64,000 nucleotides of DNA from a candidate division WOR-3 bacterium (GCA_039802005.1 JBDRVV010000003.1:1-64000), one strand, 5' to 3'; positions 55,334 to 64,000 are shown, counted from the first letter of the stretch. Program-made: numbers and translations. Notes: generated from the letters alone by a model not told the origin.

Positions 55334-55361
55334 TTGACATTGTCATTTTTCTGACTAAACT
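55334..55361 (+). promoter_or_regulatory. pgsB promoter, leaderless type
   Basis: TTGACA (55334-55339), 16 nt, TAAACT (55356-55361), 5 nt, GTG at 55367. Confidence 0.75.
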
Positions 55362-55366
55362 TAAGT

Positions 55367-56593
55367 GTGGTTTTCGATTACGGTATATTTCTTTTATTTT
55401 CCCTTTTGATTCTATTTATTGTAATCGGCAGAATTGAATGGGTAAATCATACCCGGAACATAAATGCCATTCCTTTGCGCATTGTCGTCAACGGGACAAG
55501 AGGAAAATCCACAGTAACAAGACTGCTCGGTGCGGCATTAAAGGCAGGAGGTTATAAGACCCTTGCCAAAACAACAGGGACAAAACCGAGGATTGTGATT
55601 GACAACAAAGTTGAAAAACCAGTAATAAGACCGGGTAGAGCCAATATACACGAACAACTATCCATAACGAGAAAAGCAGTCCAGGAAAAAGTAGATGCCA
55701 TTGTTTTTGAAAATATGTCTTTAAGACCTGACCTGCAATGGGTTGAAGAAAGTAAGATAATATCCCCTCAGATCGTGGTGATCACAAATGTGCGGGCTGA
55801 CCATCTTGAAGTAATGGGTCCCACCTTAGAGGACATTGCAAAAAATTTTATAAATGCAGTACCACAAAAAGCAAAGGTGTTCACCGGTGAAAAAGTTTTA
55901 TTTCCCTTATTAGAGAAACTGGCTAAAAAACGCGGACTTGAGATTTATCTTAGTAACGAGAATGAGGTTACAGATGAAGACTTGCATCCTTTTCCTTATT
56001 TTGAACATCGCGAAAATATAGCGTTGGTTTTAAATGTGTGTAGCCACTTAGGAATTAAAAAAGAAAAAGCCCTTGCTGAAATGTATAATTATATCCCGGA
56101 TTCTGGTGTATTAAAAAAATATGAACTAAATATCGGGGGCAAAAATATTTTGCTTTATAATGCCCTTGCTGCAAATGACCCGGACTCTACTTATTTTATA
56201 TATGAAAGAATTAATAAACCCGAAAAAAATTTTTATATTCTTGCCAATTGCCGGGCAGACCGTATTGACCGTTCGGTCCAATTGGGTATACTTATCAGCA
56301 CAAAGATTAAGGCTGACTATTATTTTTTAACCGGTGGTGAGACCCGTATTTTATATCGCTCGGCAATAAAAAATGGTATGGACAGAGAAAAGTTAATTGA
56401 CCTAGGCAATAGAGATGTTGAATCGGTTTATGAGAAAGTAAGCGAAATTATCAATGATAACGGAGTGATACTTGCGATTGGGAATATCGTTGGATATGGT
56501 GAAAGATTGATTGCGCACTTTGTTCAAAAAAGTAATCCGCGGCATTCCGTGTTGCCATCCACGCCCTCCCGCGGAATTGCGGAGCAGAAATGA
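55367..56593 (+). CDS. pgsB: Poly-gamma-glutamate synthase PgsB/CapB
   Basis: 408 residues. One N-terminal membrane segment (about 5-22), then a Mur-ligase-like ATP-dependent amide ligase: P-loop VNGTRGKSTVTRLLG near 42, KTTGTKPRIV, NVRADHLEVMGPTLEDIA near 140, and ANCRADRIDRSVQ near 285. Polymerises glutamate through gamma-carboxyl groups. GTG start at the predicted +1. ATGA overlap with pgsC. Confidence 0.95.
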   Translation: MVFDYGIFLLFSLLILFIVIGRIEWVNHTRNINAIPLRIVVNGTRGKSTVTRLLGAALKAGGYKTLAKTTGTKPRIVIDNKVEKPVIRPGRANIHEQLSITRKAVQEKVDAIVFENMSLRPDLQWVEESKIISPQIVVITNVRADHLEVMGPTLEDIAKNFINAVPQKAKVFTGEKVLFPLLEKLAKKRGLEIYLSNENEVTDEDLHPFPYFEHRENIALVLNVCSHLGIKKEKALAEMYNYIPDSGVLKKYELNIGGKNILLYNALAANDPDSTYFIYERINKPEKNFYILANCRADRIDRSVQLGILISTKIKADYYFLTGGETRILYRSAIKNGMDREKLIDLGNRDVESVYEKVSEIINDNGVILAIGNIVGYGERLIAHFVQKSNPRHSVLPSTPSRGIAEQK

Positions 56594-57039
56594 TTGTCAT
56601 CGCTGTCGGCTTAGGGATGATGCTAAATCTCCTGCTAACCGAGACAATCGGCCTTGCTGCGGGCGGTATTGTTGTTCCCGGCTATATCGCCCTGAATCTA
56701 CATAAACCCGATATGGTCATAAGCACCGTAGTTATAGCATTAATAACTTATCTTCTGTTATATCTTTTATCCCGTTTTATTTTACTTTATGGCAGAAGAC
56801 TACTAATAGTATCCATTATCATCGGTTATCTGCTTGGATACCTGACAAGAGTATACCCTTCAATTTCACTTGAGACGCTGAAACTTGATATAACAACTAT
56901 TGGATTTGTTGTTCCGGGTCTGATCGCATACTGGATGCAGAGACAGGGCATTATAGAAACAATCAGCACAATGATAATTGCAGCGGTGATTGTAAGACTG
57001 ATATTGATAATCCTGACTGGAGGTGCAATATTGCCATAA
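56590..57039 (+). CDS. pgsC: Poly-gamma-glutamate synthesis protein PgsC/CapC
   Basis: 149 residues, almost entirely membrane-spanning (about four to five segments). TETIGLAAGGIVVPGYIALN near 17 and LDITTIGFVVPGLIAYWMQRQG near 100 (cited in part) are PgsC signatures. Works with PgsB as the membrane synthase. Confidence 0.94.
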   Translation: MIVIAVGLGMMLNLLLTETIGLAAGGIVVPGYIALNLHKPDMVISTVVIALITYLLLYLLSRFILLYGRRLLIVSIIIGYLLGYLTRVYPSISLETLKLDITTIGFVVPGLIAYWMQRQGIIETISTMIIAAVIVRLILIILTGGAILP

Positions 57040-57041
57040 AA

Positions 57042-58121
57042 TTGAGGAGCGGTAAATTACCAAATTATATCCTTATCTCTGTCACAATTATTTCTTTAAT
57101 ATTCATATTCTTAACACTTTATTATAAAACGAAACATTATGCTCCATATTACCAGGAAAAAATAGAGAGCGCCCGTTTAACAAAGGCTTTGTTTGAAAAA
57201 ATAAAACAAGAAAAATTAAAAAAAGGTTTGATAATAGATCCAATCAATGACCCAAATCAAACCGGATTGATTGGATTAGAGCATTCACCAATTACAAGCG
57301 AACCCGGTGATCTAAATGCTAAACTAACCACAACGAATCCCAACATTTCCGCAGTAATTATTGAGTTATTCAAAAAATGCCACTTGAATGATGGAGAAGT
57401 TGTCGCTGTTTCTTTCAGTGGCTCTTTTCCCGCCTTGAATCTCGCGGTTCTTTCTGCAATCCAGACCTTAAATTTAAAACCCATTATCATCACTTCTGTA
57501 AGTTCTTCAATGTGGGGTGCAAATATTCCTGAATTTACTTATCTTGATATGGAAAAATTTTTATTTCAGAATGGTCTTTTAAAATTTCGTTCGGTTGCTG
57601 CTTCCCTGGGAGGTATTGATGACATTGGTAGAGGATTGAGCCCAGAAGGTAGAAAAATCCTTGAAACAGCAATAGAAAGAAATGAAATTATGGAATTGAA
57701 ATCAAAAGACCTTGAAGAGGCGATAGAAAAAAGATTCAGATTATATTACGAAATTGCTGGTGAAGAAAAAATTTCCTGTTTTATAAATATCGGGGGCGGT
57801 GCAACTGCACTCGCAGGATACGAATTACCTACAGGAATTTTAGACCCATTGAAATATTCTTTCCATCAAGGGCTTGCTGGCAGGTTTCTTAAAAACGGCG
57901 TAAAGGTGATAAATATCAACAACATTGGAACCTTGACGAGGCGTTATGAACTTCCCATTGCACCGATACCCCTCCCGGAAATTGGCGAAGGGAAATTATA
58001 TTATGAAAAACGTTATTCGGTCATTCTCTCCACAATCTTTTTTGTCATCCTCAGTTTGATAATCTTTGTGGTCTTGAGAATTGATATTGATTATTACATC
58101 AGGAGGCATAAAAATGATTAA
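57042..58121 (+). CDS. pgsW: Poly-gamma-glutamate system protein PgsW
   Basis: 359 residues with one membrane segment near each end (about 9-27 and 325-345) and a large extracytoplasmic domain between. FSGSFPALNLAVLSAIQTL, SVSSSMWGANIPEFTYLDME and FINIGGGATALAG match the 'poly-gamma-glutamate system protein' family that accompanies pgsBC in many environmental bacteria in place of PgsA. TTG start, 2 nt after pgsC; GGAGGT lies too far upstream (about 18 nt), so initiation probably depends on coupling. Confidence 0.85.
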   Translation: MRSGKLPNYILISVTIISLIFIFLTLYYKTKHYAPYYQEKIESARLTKALFEKIKQEKLKKGLIIDPINDPNQTGLIGLEHSPITSEPGDLNAKLTTTNPNISAVIIELFKKCHLNDGEVVAVSFSGSFPALNLAVLSAIQTLNLKPIIITSVSSSMWGANIPEFTYLDMEKFLFQNGLLKFRSVAASLGGIDDIGRGLSPEGRKILETAIERNEIMELKSKDLEEAIEKRFRLYYEIAGEEKISCFINIGGGATALAGYELPTGILDPLKYSFHQGLAGRFLKNGVKVININNIGTLTRRYELPIAPIPLPEIGEGKLYYEKRYSVILSTIFFVILSLIIFVVLRIDIDYYIRRHKND

Positions 58122-58935
58122 TATTATTTTATTTTTTGTCCTGAATCAGGTTGTAAACATTTCGCCAATGAATGAAGTTAAAATAAAAATCCAGACACAA
58201 AAAGAAGAATCTTATTATGTTCTGACCAAAAAGCAACCATTAGAGATAAAAGTCTCGGGTCCTACCTGGCTCCGGGTCTATACAAGAATTCCCTGGTCGG
58301 GTGAGAAAAAAGGTACAAAATTATACAAATTAATTCTACAGGAAGATGACATTAAAGAAAAATTTATTACCCTGGAGAGCGAGTATTCAAAAGTATCCCG
58401 TATTGATAATATTAGATTGAGTAAATGGCGTTCTTTTTATATAAATGTCCCAGAAGGAAACCACTCATACCGTTTTATTCACTGGCGTGCACCAGGTGAT
58501 ACAATCTTTTTGAAGTTTACAAATGAATCACCCGGTAAATGGCAGGATATTACACCTTTGTCTTATAATGCAAAATTAGAACTTGTTGAAGATGAGAAAA
58601 TAATTAATTACTTTGAAGCAACCAGAGAAAAACCAGTTGTATTAGAAATAGAAGGACCAAAGAAATTAAAAATAATCTCGCGTTTGAATTTAACAGCAGA
58701 TATCAAGGGCGAGCAAATATATTCTATCAATATCAAAGAAAAAGGTAAAACAATAAAGTCCATCAATTATCGTGCTTACCCCTCAGAGACAGTGCACTAT
58801 AACAACCGTCCCGGCACATTACCTTCAAATCCGCACGTTTTTTTTCTCAATGTTCGTAAGGGGCTACATCGTTATGAATTTTATATTGAAAATTGGACTG
58901 AATGCGGTTTAAGGTTTCTCATTGAATCAAAATGA
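58114..58935 (+). CDS. Exported protein with duplicated domain, pgs operon
   Basis: 273 residues from ATG 58114 after AGGAGGC; overlaps the pgsW stop by 8 nt. Short hydrophobic N-terminus (MINIILFFVLNQVV), probably a signal peptide. Two similar halves follow. The first has QPLEIKVSGPTWLRVYTRI ... SFYINVPEGNHSYRF; the second KPVVLEIEGPKKLKIISRL ... VFFLNVRKGLHRYEF. The domain is not recognised. Its place between pgsW and a barrel suggests a periplasmic role in polymer handling (inference). Confidence 0.75.
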   Translation: MINIILFFVLNQVVNISPMNEVKIKIQTQKEESYYVLTKKQPLEIKVSGPTWLRVYTRIPWSGEKKGTKLYKLILQEDDIKEKFITLESEYSKVSRIDNIRLSKWRSFYINVPEGNHSYRFIHWRAPGDTIFLKFTNESPGKWQDITPLSYNAKLELVEDEKIINYFEATREKPVVLEIEGPKKLKIISRLNLTADIKGEQIYSINIKEKGKTIKSINYRAYPSETVHYNNRPGTLPSNPHVFFLNVRKGLHRYEFYIENWTECGLRFLIESK

Positions 58936-59897
58936 GTATACTGCTGTTTCTGTTTACTACATTTGATTATTCAATCAAAACAAATCTTGATTTTGCCTAT
59001 GATGATAACATTTTTGAATACTCCCAAAAATATCTTGGAGAATTCATAAAAGGAGTAAACCCCGAACGTTTCCCATTTGAAACCTATGATGATTTATATA
59101 CAAACTATGGACTGGATTTATTGATTCGGAATAAATTCATCGGTCAACATACAACAACCTTCAATTTCAGTTTCACCGGATATAACTATTTTGTAAATAG
59201 TCAAAAAAATTATTCCGTCATTTCAACTGGAATAAGACAATCCTTTGGTGATTTCGCCATCAGGTTCGGGTATCTGATAATGCCCGGATATTTAATTCGT
59301 TATTACCGTGACCCACTTGGAACAAAATATATTGGTTGCGAATTTACCGAGCATTTATTCACCATTAAAACAAATCTGAAATTAAGTTCATTAGATTTAG
59401 GCGCGGTCTTTGCCTATGAGATTGATGATTACATTGAAAATTTTAATATATATGATTCAAAGGCAATTAGAATTGCGCCTTTTTTTGATTTTTCACTATT
59501 CAGGACTATGGATTTTAAGTTTAACTACGAGTTCAAATCTTCTGATGCAAGGGGTCCGGTACCTGATATCTCTTATGCCCAGCACCGGTTCGGTTTAAAA
59601 CCGAACCTAAAAATGAATTTCCCCAGATTCTCAAAACTCGGTTTTGAATATCAATTTAAATACCGAATTTTTACGACCGAGGTCTCCCCTATTCTTGATA
59701 CACCACATAGCGGTCGGTTGGATATCACCCAGAAATTGAAATTTTCTTATGAATTCCCCATTTTTACAGGACTAAATTTTTCTTTGAATTATACCTATGA
59801 GTTTCGCATCTCACAATCTGAAGTCTATCAGGACATAGGCGATTATAAAAATTACAATAAATGGAGTGCGGGCTGTGGTTTGGAATTTTTCTATTAA
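58932..59897 (+). CDS. Outer-membrane beta-barrel protein, pgs operon
   Basis: 321 residues. Short signal-like start (MSILLFLFTTF), then alternating hydrophobic/aromatic strands throughout and a C-terminal ...AGCGLEFFY ending in an aromatic residue, the pattern used for barrel insertion. Not matched to a named family. ATGA overlap with the preceding gene puts it in the pgs operon, so it may be an exit porin or anchor for the polymer (inference). Confidence 0.72.
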   Translation: MSILLFLFTTFDYSIKTNLDFAYDDNIFEYSQKYLGEFIKGVNPERFPFETYDDLYTNYGLDLLIRNKFIGQHTTTFNFSFTGYNYFVNSQKNYSVISTGIRQSFGDFAIRFGYLIMPGYLIRYYRDPLGTKYIGCEFTEHLFTIKTNLKLSSLDLGAVFAYEIDDYIENFNIYDSKAIRIAPFFDFSLFRTMDFKFNYEFKSSDARGPVPDISYAQHRFGLKPNLKMNFPRFSKLGFEYQFKYRIFTTEVSPILDTPHSGRLDITQKLKFSYEFPIFTGLNFSLNYTYEFRISQSEVYQDIGDYKNYNKWSAGCGLEFFY

Positions 59898-59904
59898 GTG
59901 TAGG

Positions 59905-59922
59905 GCAGGGCTTCAGCCTTGC
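59905..59922 (+). repeat. Small palindrome of the TGTAG family
   Basis: 8-bp stem gcagggct/agccttgc (one G-T pair), TC loop, preceded by GTGTAGG. Lies between the barrel gene and the LVIVD gene. Confidence 0.6.
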
Positions 59923-59942
59923 AGAACTAATATGGAGAGCGT

Positions 59943-60914
59943 ATGAAAAAAATAAAAATTTTTTTACTGCCATTAATTTTAATCTTAACCTGCCGCCATC
60001 CCCAGGTGGACACACATAATCTGGTAATTGTAAGTCAGTGTAAACTCCCAGGATACTCGGTAAATATAGATATCAAAGGAAGTTATGCATACATTGCCAA
60101 TGACCAGGGTGGTTTGCAAATTGTTGATATATCAAATCCCGAATCAACCTATGTTGTGGGTCATTATTTTCACCAGACAAATATCCAGGGTGTAGCAGTG
60201 AGAGATAGTTTTGCTTATCTTGCGCTTGCGGCCGGGCCACCGAATAATGGTGGGATGCTAATTGTAAATATTTCAGACCCAGCGAATCCTTCTTTTGTGG
60301 GACAGGATAACTGGTTTTACGGATATAATGTCTTTTCACCGCCCAATGATTCAAAGTATGTATATATTGCCGCAAGATACTGGTTCATTGTTGAAGATGT
60401 CTCCTGGCCTCAGTATCCAAGTTATGCACGGAGATTTGCCACGCCCGGAAATGTTCACAGTCTATTTATCGTTGACTCTTTGGCATATTTGGCTTGCGAA
60501 CAGATGGGTTTAATTATCTATAATTTAAAAAATCCGGATAGCACCGCCAAGATTGGAGAAATTGACACACCTTCTAATGCCAGAGATGTCTTTGTAATTG
60601 ATGATTTTGCTTACATTGCTGATGGTTATGATGGGCTGGTCCTGATTGATGTATCAAATCCTTACAAACCAGCATTCGTCAGCAGTTATGATACGCCTGG
60701 GTATGCCCAGGGCATATTTGTAGAAAATGACCTCGCCTATTTAGCAGATGGCAGCGGTGGCTTAAAGGTGATTGATGTATCAAACCCCGAGAATTTAGAA
60801 GTGTATGCAGAATTAAAAACACCCTATGCCTATAATGTCTATGTAAAGAATGGGTTGATATACCTTGTTGACAGGGACCTCGGAATGGTTATAATTAAAG
60901 AGGAAAATCAATGA
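59943..60914 (+). CDS. LVIVD-repeat lipoprotein
   Basis: 323 residues. Signal with probable lipid-anchor cysteine (LLPLILILTC; Thr at -1 is less usual). The rest is about six repeats of the LVIVD type (AYIANDQGGLQIVDISNPES, AYIADGYDGLVLIDVSNPYK, AYLADGSGGLKVIDVSNPEN), expected to fold as a beta-propeller on the cell surface. Function unknown. The C25-like gene overlaps its stop by 4 nt. Confidence 0.88.
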   Translation: MKKIKIFLLPLILILTCRHPQVDTHNLVIVSQCKLPGYSVNIDIKGSYAYIANDQGGLQIVDISNPESTYVVGHYFHQTNIQGVAVRDSFAYLALAAGPPNNGGMLIVNISDPANPSFVGQDNWFYGYNVFSPPNDSKYVYIAARYWFIVEDVSWPQYPSYARRFATPGNVHSLFIVDSLAYLACEQMGLIIYNLKNPDSTAKIGEIDTPSNARDVFVIDDFAYIADGYDGLVLIDVSNPYKPAFVSSYDTPGYAQGIFVENDLAYLADGSGGLKVIDVSNPENLEVYAELKTPYAYNVYVKNGLIYLVDRDLGMVIIKEENQ

Positions 60915-63900
60915 TTACTCTATCCTTGCTTCTCTTATCCGCATTAAATAGTCTTGATATTCAGATTGTTAACCGAACAGAAAACTCAATCCAGCTGAAA
61001 ATCCCTTTTGCCGACAAGATATTGGAACCAGTGAATATAGGATTTATAATCGCCCCCGAGTATCCAGTGTATGAATGTTTGGAAACAGGAAGTAACAATC
61101 CTGTGGAGATTGGTCCACCGGTGACACTAAAGGATTATAATCTTTATCCGGTGATTCTCAATCCGGTCGCAGGGATTAAAGAATTTAATTTAGAAATTCA
61201 CTTTTCCAAATATCAAGATATCAAACTTCCCCATAGCCATGCCCGGGTTTTCAAAAATTTAATTCTCAATTACGAATACAATCCTGAAACAAAACCCCAG
61301 GGACTTTTGATTATCACACCCAATTCATTTTATAATGCAGTTTTACCCCTTGCGGATTGGAAGGAAAAAAAGGGCTGGAAGGTCACGGTGGCAAAATTAT
61401 CGGAAACCGGCAATACAGCAACTGCGATAAAAAATTATATCACAAATGCGTATTACAACTGGAATCCACCACCAGAATATGTTATCCTTGTCGGTGATAA
61501 GGATAGTGTTCCATGTTTCACCGTCTCTTCAAATCCCACTGACCATCCCTATACAACGATAAAAGGCAACGACTTCCTTTCTGATTTTTTTATTGGCAGG
61601 TTATCTGTCGCCAATATAAACGATTTAAATACCGTGATTGCAAAAATCGTTAATTATGAAAGAAATCCTTATACTACAGATACCCTGTGGTTCAAAAGGA
61701 CACTGATGGTTGCCGGTAATTATCCTGACAATCAAATGACAACACCAATTCTGACCAAACGCTGGGTGCGCGAGAAATTTTTGAATAGTGGATATTATCA
61801 GGTGGACACGGTTTTTTATCCACCAGTTTCCAACGGCGTTACTGCCATCACCAATTCAGTTAACCAGGGTGTAACCTTTGTAAATTATCGCGGTGGTATT
61901 GCTTCCTGGTCAGGATGGGACCGACCGAGTTTTTATAACACAGATGTGATTGGACTTTCCAATGGCTGGAAATTACCCGTAATAACAAGCATTGTCTGTT
62001 TAACCGGCAATTTCAATGCCGAACCCTGTTTTGGGGAAACCTGGTTAAGGGCAGGTAATCCTTCAACTCCAAAAGGTGCGGTTGCGTTCTTTGGTGCATC
62101 ACCACCCACAACCCATTCAAGGTGGAACAATTGCCTTGACTTTGGAATCTATCGCGGATTATTGATTGATAGCATTTATTATTTGGGGCCTATGACATAT
62201 CGTGGAAAAATGGAAGTTTATGTGAACTTCCCATTAGAAACCTCTCCAGATTCTGGAAGTGAATTCTATTTCAATGCTTATAATCTTTTGGGCGACCCTT
62301 CGCTTGAGGTCTGGACCGATGTGCCAAGAAGTTTCATTGTCAATCATCAACCAACAATTCCTGTTGGAACAAATCAATTTTCGGTCCAGGTTTTAAATTC
62401 TTCTTCCCAACCTGTAGAAGGGGCAATGGTGAGTCTTTATAAAAAGAATGAAACCAAGGAAGTAGAATTCACTGGTGCTAACGGCATTGCAAATTTTCAG
62501 ATTACTGCAAACACTCCTGATACGCTCTTTGTGACCGTAACAAAGCATAATTTCAAACCTTATTGTGGTTATGCAATGGTAAATAACTCTGCAGTCTATG
62601 TTGGATACTACAATCATACGATAAGTGACCCCGGCGGTAATAATAACGGTGAGATAAATCCCGGAGAAACTATTAACCTAACAATAACCCTGAAGAATTT
62701 CGGCAATTCAACGACCGCAACGAATGTGAATGCCATACTAACCACAAACGACCCATTTATTACCGTTATAGATTCAATAAAAAATTATGGAACAATTGCC
62801 CCGGGGGCGACGGCAAATTCATCACCCTTTGTCTTTGGTGTTTCACAAAACATTAAAAATAATCATACAATTAAATTCAATATTTCAATTAGTTCTTCCC
62901 AGGGCAACTGGAATTCAGTGCTCTGGCTCAATGCAAAGGCAGCAGAATTTGAGTATCAAAGATGTCAAATCTTAGACGGCGGTAATGGTATACTTGAACC
63001 AGGCGAAACCTCGGAGCTGACAATTTCAATAAAAAATATTGGTGGACTTATTGGAACAAATCTCCAAGGAGTTTTACGGTCATTAAATCCCGGTGTATCA
63101 GTCATTGACTCAAATGGTTCCTTCAGCAGTATTCCGGTTGGCGACTCAGCAACAAATTCTGGCGATGTATTCCGGATAACCGCCTCTCCCCAACTTGCCC
63201 CGGGCCATGAAATAAAATTTTTAACTATCTTATCTGAAGGCAGTTGGATAAGAGATACCGTTGTATTTTCTATTATAATTGGCGTTGTGGCATCCAACAA
63301 ACCCACCGGACCAGACCGCTATGGCTATTATGTCTATGATAACACTGATACCGGATATCCCGAAGCCCCAACTTATGAATGGGTTGAAATTGACCCGGAT
63401 TTGGGAGGCCCGGGCACAATTTTGGGCCTGTTAAATGATGAGACAAAAACAATTGCACTCCCATTTAATTTTAAATATTACGGGAATAATTACAATAGAA
63501 TCAGTATCTGCTCCAACGGCTACATTGCCATGGATTCCACCTGGATTGCCGATATGTATAACTGGCATATCTTCGGTGCGGGCGGTCCACCCTTGCTCAT
63601 TGCACCGTTCTGGGATGATTTAGACCCGAATGCGACCGACTCCAGCGGTAATATCTGTTATTATTATGACGCCTCAAATCATAGATTTATAATTGAGTGG
63701 TCGAGGGTTCAACACCTCCACAATCCAACTGCACCGACACCTGCAGAGTTACAGACATTTGAAATAGTTTTATATGATCCGATTTTTTATCCCACCCAGA
63801 CCGGTGATGGTGAGATACTATTCCAATATAAGAAGATAAATAACGACGATTACTGGCATAATTATGCCACGGTTGGAATACGGGATTACTATCATATAAA

Positions 63901-64000
63901 TGGCCTTGAATATACCTACGCCAATCAATATCCAGCCTCTGCGGCAATACTTGAAAATAATCGGGCAATCAAATTTACCACCGACCCACCGGATCCATTC
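60911..64000 (+). CDS. C25 (gingipain)-like secreted protein, 3' end beyond window
   Basis: At least 1030 codons, open to the window edge. Signal-like start MITLSLLLLSALNSL. An N-terminal domain leads into a gingipain-like region (residues about 130-470): LLIITPNSFYNAVLPLADWK, YVILVGDKDSVPCF, FVNYRGGIASWSGW, ITSIVCLTGNF, CFGETWLRAG, YNLLGDPSLEVW. The catalytic Cys corresponds to C363, but the histidine expected in the GHG motif is replaced (R327-G328-G329-I330). Two CARDB-like beta domains follow (NNNGEINPGETINLTITLKN; GGNGILEPGETSELTISIKN), then a domain with ISICSNGYIAMDSTW and FWDDLDP. Activity is uncertain. Confidence 0.85.
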   Translation, partial: MITLSLLLLSALNSLDIQIVNRTENSIQLKIPFADKILEPVNIGFIIAPEYPVYECLETGSNNPVEIGPPVTLKDYNLYPVILNPVAGIKEFNLEIHFSKYQDIKLPHSHARVFKNLILNYEYNPETKPQGLLIITPNSFYNAVLPLADWKEKKGWKVTVAKLSETGNTATAIKNYITNAYYNWNPPPEYVILVGDKDSVPCFTVSSNPTDHPYTTIKGNDFLSDFFIGRLSVANINDLNTVIAKIVNYERNPYTTDTLWFKRTLMVAGNYPDNQMTTPILTKRWVREKFLNSGYYQVDTVFYPPVSNGVTAITNSVNQGVTFVNYRGGIASWSGWDRPSFYNTDVIGLSNGWKLPVITSIVCLTGNFNAEPCFGETWLRAGNPSTPKGAVAFFGASPPTTHSRWNNCLDFGIYRGLLIDSIYYLGPMTYRGKMEVYVNFPLETSPDSGSEFYFNAYNLLGDPSLEVWTDVPRSFIVNHQPTIPVGTNQFSVQVLNSSSQPVEGAMVSLYKKNETKEVEFTGANGIANFQITANTPDTLFVTVTKHNFKPYCGYAMVNNSAVYVGYYNHTISDPGGNNNGEINPGETINLTITLKNFGNSTTATNVNAILTTNDPFITVIDSIKNYGTIAPGATANSSPFVFGVSQNIKNNHTIKFNISISSSQGNWNSVLWLNAKAAEFEYQRCQILDGGNGILEPGETSELTISIKNIGGLIGTNLQGVLRSLNPGVSVIDSNGSFSSIPVGDSATNSGDVFRITASPQLAPGHEIKFLTILSEGSWIRDTVVFSIIIGVVASNKPTGPDRYGYYVYDNTDTGYPEAPTYEWVEIDPDLGGPGTILGLLNDETKTIALPFNFKYYGNNYNRISICSNGYIAMDSTWIADMYNWHIFGAGGPPLLIAPFWDDLDPNATDSSGNICYYYDASNHRFIIEWSRVQHLHNPTAPTPAELQTFEIVLYDPIFYPTQTGDGEILFQYKKINNDDYWHNYATVGIRDYYHINGLEYTYANQYPASAAILENNRAIKFTTDPPDPF

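Follow-up and report, generated by a model that had tools for sequence, protein, structure and literature searches.

A periplasmic protein and an outer-membrane barrel encoded with pgsBCW form a candidate export or anchoring module for poly-gamma-glutamate in diderm bacteria

The closest described counterparts of the locus studied here are the poly-gamma-glutamate (PGA) operons of the PgsBCA/CapBCADE type from Bacillus and Fusobacterium. Fusobacterium nucleatum is the Gram-negative PGA producer named in the review and survey literature (PMC3815933), and a genome-scale model of PGA capsules treats CapB and CapC as mandatory and CapA and CapE as accessory, with no outer-membrane component (PMC5542703). 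Flocs of Cloacimonadota embedded in PGA have been seen by DAPI staining, and the PGA operon of that phylum has been described as comprising three genes (CapB, CapC, CapA/PgsF) and as Gram-positive-like, in a source whose text nowhere contains the term outer membrane (PMC13082233). Here, we analyze a 64,000-nucleotide stretch of DNA (the window) from a candidate division WOR-3 bacterium (GCA_039802005.1 JBDRVV010000003.1:1-64000), in which five genes at positions 55,367 to 59,897 (pgsB, pgsC, pgsW and two that we call D4 and D5; table 1) were originally predicted, from the sequence alone, to add a periplasmic carrier and an exit pore or anchor to PGA synthesis in a diderm cell. Our analysis supports this proposal: D4 and D5 probably constitute a dedicated diderm module for the export or anchoring of PGA, for which we infer the polymer chemistry, the direction of transport and the pore function of D5, which may serve as a pore or as a surface anchor.

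The gene layout given in the original prediction (five genes, their coordinates, overlaps of 4-8 nt and one 2-nt gap) proved exact, and its three pgs identities all exceed NCBIfam cut-offs: PgsB scores 381 bits against TIGR04012 (cut-off 223), PgsC 123 bits against TIGR04011 (cut-off 96) and PgsW 314 bits against TIGR04332 (cut-off 100). The adjacent pgsB and pgsC genes, both over curated equivalog cut-offs, thus encode members of the PGA synthase families, and the operon shares with PgsBCA/CapBCADE the PgsB and PgsC homologues, their order and a third membrane-associated partner. It departs from that operon type in that the third gene encodes PgsW rather than PgsA/CapA (PF09587), and in its two extra envelope genes and a beta-propeller; PGA_cap proteins (PF09587) are encoded elsewhere in the window's genome, outside the operon. 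PgsW appears, from its sequence, to carry a conserved domain flanked by two transmembrane segments. A profile search found no solved structural relative of PgsW, the window's PgsW as a single query matched nothing among viral contigs and genome contigs, and an initial, wide-ranging alignment of PgsW proved too diverse for a pattern search. PgsW is not discussed as a PGA protein in the open-access literature that we searched.

The D4-D5 module and pgsW are inherited together as one unit. Across 147 genomes from the WOR-3 phylum, pgsW occurs in 70, D4 in 70 and D5 in 72, with pgsW and D4 together in 66, pgsW and D5 in 66, and D4 and D5 in 69 (Fisher test, ~1e-31); where pgsW is absent, the D4-D5 pair is almost always absent too. 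Several of the exceptions, and probably most, are contig ends; one genome (G108) shows an apparent true loss of D4, and another (G010) has only a distant lone barrel. In a group of four genomes (G017-G020), pgsW, pgsC and D4-D5 are all kept but scattered. In four loci of one WOR-3 family (L076, L077, L178 and L179), pgsW lies beside gyrB, apart from D4-D5 and pgsC, an arrangement which indicates that the module can disperse yet persist.

The association extends well beyond WOR-3, with the same gene order in ~15 named lineages, nearly all from the FCB superphylum, and a median intergenic distance of −4 nt for each of the junctions B-C, C-W, W-D4 and D4-D5. D5 is present in 25 of 36 named genomes, always as a single copy inside the pgs cluster, and named genomes with a D5-less pgs cluster have no D5 elsewhere at the sensitivity used. 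Among 245 genomes sampled from the class to which locus L130 belongs, all nine strong D5 matches lie ~2 kb from pgsW, and ~10 other pgsW loci are without D5. D4-D5 is therefore not a pair found mainly without pgsBCW, a pattern that would have spoken against the original prediction. Within Cloacimonadota, the phylum with the described PGA operon, PgsB, PgsC and PgsW are found together with D4-D5: D5 is encoded in 106 of 125 genomes and adjoins pgsW in 19 of the 20 regions read. D4-D5 is not mentioned in the available portion of PMC13082233, and we found it nowhere described as a PGA export or anchoring module in the open-access literature, although a description may exist in a subscription journal. 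The least probable alternative that we weighed is that D4 and D5 are merely conserved neighbors that serve the envelope in some unrelated way, for instance in nutrient uptake; the D5 fold does resemble the uptake channels OmpG and CymA, but the co-occurrence contradicts this alternative, as do the near-constant absence of D4-D5 when pgsW is absent and an association held across ~15 lineages with gene overlaps and fusions (described below).

A phylogeny of PgsW places every D4-carrying row in one clade (SH-aLRT 98, 73 of 76 rows), whose members come from WOR-3, Zixibacteria, Eisenbacteria, Bacteroidota, Ignavibacteriota, KSB1, Marinimicrobia, Calditrichota, Gemmatimonadota, Latescibacterota, Fibrobacterota, Cloacimonadota, Fermentibacterota and LCP-89, almost all of them phyla of the FCB superphylum. 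Distances between D4 or D5 sequences correlate with those of PgsB and PgsW as well as the latter two correlate with each other (Spearman 0.53-0.57). The one Nitrospirota-labelled row within the clade is without D4-D5. The pgsBCW of a Nitrospirae-labelled genome (L095), lacking D4-D5, is very close to that of WOR-3 (56% in PgsW), which may reflect transfer or misbinning.

D4 matches no family over cut-off in Pfam or NCBIfam, and a profile search found no solved structural relative. As originally predicted, it contains a duplicated domain: profile-profile comparison aligns its halves at 99.9% probability (E 1e-32), against less than 1% for each of five column-shuffled control profiles. The AlphaFold2 model (52 relatives; pLDDT 93, pTM 0.63) consists of two jelly-roll domains, for which the best fold matches are tandem CBM51 carbohydrate-binding modules, with a low global TM-score because the domain arrangement differs. 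A tetratricopeptide repeat (TPR) role was rejected, given the tandem jelly-roll fold and the lack of any TPR family match, and an OPX (Wza-type) role was likewise rejected, neither D4 nor D5 having an OPX match in Pfam. In many WOR-3 families, Eisenbacteria, Gemmatimonadota and others, the barrel carries D4-like domains at its N-terminus through gene fusion. The N-terminus of an outer-membrane barrel faces the periplasm, which would place D4 at the periplasmic mouth. From these fusions and from its fold, D4 is most likely a periplasmic partner at that mouth, and it would make the same contact in cells that lack the fusion.

The fifth protein of the original prediction, a beta-barrel, is modelled by AlphaFold2 (50 relatives; pLDDT 96.3) as a 14-stranded barrel. 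Its signal sequence runs directly into strand 1, and D5 is therefore without a separate plug domain. D5 matches no family over cut-off in Pfam or NCBIfam, and a profile search returned no solved structural relative; its fold neighbors are generic pores (OmpG, CymA and, lower in the list, PgaA; TM-scores up to ~0.6). The barrel thus has no plug domain, and none of these searches types it to another transporter family; either outcome would have counted against the original prediction. D5 shares strand number and overall barrel with the monomeric pores OmpG and CymA, but differs from them in having no sequence relation, a conserved extracellular face and a genetic link to a polymer synthase. When inward- and outward-facing residues are assigned by strand alternation, the lumen is predicted to hold more lysine and arginine than aspartate and glutamate in 49 of 50 family members (mean 22.2 vs 14.4), in keeping with the electropositive lumen that had been anticipated; the outer loops of the same 50 members are acidic.

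Comparison with known polymer exporters (AlgE, PgaA, BcsC and the EpsX/EpsY translocons) reveals a common plan of an inner-membrane synthase, a periplasmic helper and an outer-membrane beta-barrel, with a cationic lumen for an anionic polymer. The known barrels have 16-18 strands plus a TPR or OPX partner (PMC9601211), whereas here the helper is a tandem jelly-roll and the polymer is built of amino acids rather than sugars; no sequence relation was found. With 14 strands in D5 and no TPR family match in D4, the module does not belong to the AlgE/PgaA/BcsC exporters.

Both the distribution of the module and the barrel itself furnish points that weigh against an export role. One WOR-3 genome (G071) retains pgsBCW and has lost both D4 and D5, apparently a true loss, and diderm Spirochaetota and Myxococcota run pgsBCW without D4-D5, which shows that the module is not universally needed. 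The five genes thus stay together across many diderm lineages but not across all diderm phyla. PgsW of Spirochaetota, Myxococcota, Bacillota and a second Bacteroidota group falls outside the clade described above, in each case without D4-D5, and the sampled neighbors of spirochaete and myxococcal pgsW (arginase, aminotransferase, ABC transporter, 5'-nucleotidase and others) include no alternative barrel. In four flavobacterial loci (L149, L167, L171 and L173), D4 is kept, D5 is undetectable and an unrelated exported protein of ~280 residues occupies its place, with a 234-residue protein between them in three; the ~280-residue protein looks beta-rich and has no Pfam match, and its replacement of the barrel is only a suspicion. 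The second Bacteroidota pgsBCW type (L199-L205 and L207) has recurrent upstream genes encoding proteins of ~370, 185 and 630 residues. Those of L202 encode an AstE/AspA-type enzyme, a DUF6305 protein and an exported gamma-glutamyltranspeptidase, the last giving independent, if indirect, support for a gamma-glutamyl product of pgsBCW, as do the DAPI-stained flocs of Cloacimonadota (PMC13082233).

As for the barrel, its 14 strands fall short of the number in known polymer exporters, the lumen excess of the window's own D5 is modest (22 lysine and arginine vs 17 aspartate and glutamate), and conservation peaks in the outer loops and the upper part of the lumen and is sparse in the lower lumen, a pattern that would also suit an anchor or an enzyme. 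Indeed, 24 positions reach at least 80% conservation across the 50 proteins, of which 14 lie in extracellular loops (including N26, D53, N89, K92, D175, D212, D256, H259 and K306) and none in periplasmic turns, and the outer loops of porins are usually variable. This conservation suggests a gate, binding pocket or anchoring site, compatible with either a pore or an anchor. D5 could accordingly be a surface anchor or enzyme with an extracellular pocket in which the polymer is bound, trimmed or covalently held, the role of CapD in Bacillus anthracis, with the chain crossing the outer membrane elsewhere; in line with this, no member of the gamma-glutamyltranspeptidase family, to which CapD belongs, was found in the window's genome. 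We regard this alternative as unlikely, as the conserved block encodes no other outer-membrane exit, the D5 lumen is predicted to be net positive and the fusions put the D4-like domains on the periplasmic side.

The genomic surroundings suggest that part of the system acts at the cell surface. The gene following D5 encodes an LVIVD beta-propeller and recurs at this place in WOR-3, Bacteroidota, Marinimicrobia, KSB1, Eisenbacteria and others; 46 of its 86 relatives have a lipobox-like motif. Next comes a C25 peptidase (PF01364, 224 bits) with a Por_Secre_tail score of 23.4 bits, under the cut-off of 27. C25 genes adjoin the block in 30 of 42 WOR-3 loci and in 19 of 74 flanks from other phyla, compared with 6 of 146 background genes. 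Three loci (L130 3995-7006, L134 11259-14297 and L242 8229-11174) encode, next to the pgs cluster or in its vicinity, CapA (PGA_cap) and PKD domains fused to a tail of the type IX secretion system (T9SS), and L137 and L193 encode CapA-PKD proteins near the operon in which a tail was not detected. Together, the tailed CapA proteins and the C25 enrichment at the block edges suggest that polymer-related enzymes act outside the cell, as expected if the polymer arrives there. T9SS-tail-like C-termini also occur in a run of proteins after the window's operon (L092 5912-18637; window 60911 onward), comprising the C25 peptidase, a YCF48-like protein, a second C25-like protein and a carboxypeptidase-like protein.

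These surroundings raise the alternative that a gamma-glutamyl chain or derivative anchors T9SS-type cargo, with D5, LVIVD and C25 acting like PorV/PorQ, PorZ and PorU, respectively. The C25 enrichment would agree with it, as would the LVIVD protein, which passes the PorZ_N_b_propeller cut-off (29.4 bits, cut-off 27), and a SprA_N match in a 1,814-residue frame (L209, G000:C2 near 59242-60279) that suggests a type IX translocon in the window's genome. We nonetheless consider it highly improbable, since the C25 peptidase scores only 64 bits where the PorU cut-off is 420, D5 lacks any PorV/PorQ match, Cloacimonadota blocks are mostly without LVIVD and C25, and these genomes commonly encode proteins with T9SS tails. 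A T9SS attachment complex (PorU/PorV/PorQ/PorZ) was rejected on the first two of these grounds.

Returning to a dedicated PGA module, we hypothesize that the operon is the diderm form of the PGA capsule system, in which PgsB and PgsC, going by what is known for their families, would join glutamate units via the gamma-carboxyl group and move the polymer across the inner membrane. PgsW, apparently held by two membrane helices with its conserved domain in the periplasm, would fill the place of PgsA/CapA in Gram-positive operons. The soluble jelly-roll pair of D4 may then receive or guide the polyanion and dock on the periplasmic mouth of D5, whose mostly net-positive lumen would let the chain exit, while its conserved extracellular vestibule would gate the chain or hold it at the surface. 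The LVIVD propeller, with the T9SS-tagged C25 peptidases and CapA-like proteins of relatives, would act outside the cell.

The extent and transcription of the operon agree in part with the original prediction. The series of same-strand genes continues through the LVIVD and C25 genes, such that the five genes stand and the predicted end is too early. As for a single leaderless promoter, a match does exist, ending 5 nt 5' of the GTG of pgsB, but the AT-rich window holds 36 such matches where 24.4 ± 4.5 are expected, only moderately above chance, and the promoter is not established. A perfect TTGACA-16-TATAAT at 60868-60895, within the 3' end of the LVIVD gene and just 5' of the C25 gene, suggests that the peptidase may have its own promoter.

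Table 1. Features of the locus, numbered from the first nucleotide of the window
Feature	Position	Strand	Description
Sigma-70-like promoter match before pgsB	55334..55361	+	TTGACA-16-TAAACT, 10/12; would yield leaderless mRNA
pgsB	55367..56593	+	GTG start; amide ligase of PGA synthase; TIGR04012 equivalog, Mur_ligase_M
pgsC	56590..57039	+	Integral-membrane partner of synthase; TIGR04011, PF14102; 4-nt overlap with pgsB
pgsW	57042..58121	+	TTG start; TIGR04332; 2-nt gap after pgsC
D4	58114..58935	+	Exported, two homologous jelly-roll domains; predicted periplasmic barrel partner; 8-nt overlap with pgsW
D5	58932..59897	+	14-stranded beta-barrel of the outer membrane; predicted to act as exit pore or surface anchor; 4-nt overlap with D4
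LVIVD beta-propeller	59943..60914	+	Probable lipoprotein, sixth gene of conserved block; PF08309, 124.5 bits
C25 (gingipain-type) peptidase	60911..64000	+	1,155 residues; exceeds window end (contig 60911-64378); weak T9SS-type C-terminal tail

Neither the genome-scale PGA capsule model (PMC5542703) nor the text of the Cloacimonadota study (PMC13082233) names an outer-membrane part, and the exit of polyglutamate from a cell with two membranes seems so far to lack an explanation. D4-D5 provides a concrete, single-copy candidate for this exit, present in the majority of Cloacimonadota genomes and across many further environmental phyla. At a confidence somewhat short of even, we further propose that FCB diderms may share an ancient outer-membrane machine of single origin that exports and fixes a poly-amino-acid capsule, stands apart from the known polysaccharide export types and includes the surface propeller and T9SS-delivered CapA or C25 proteins. 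In anaerobic digesters and sediments, the module would also serve as a marker by which diderm PGA makers can be recognized from their genomes.
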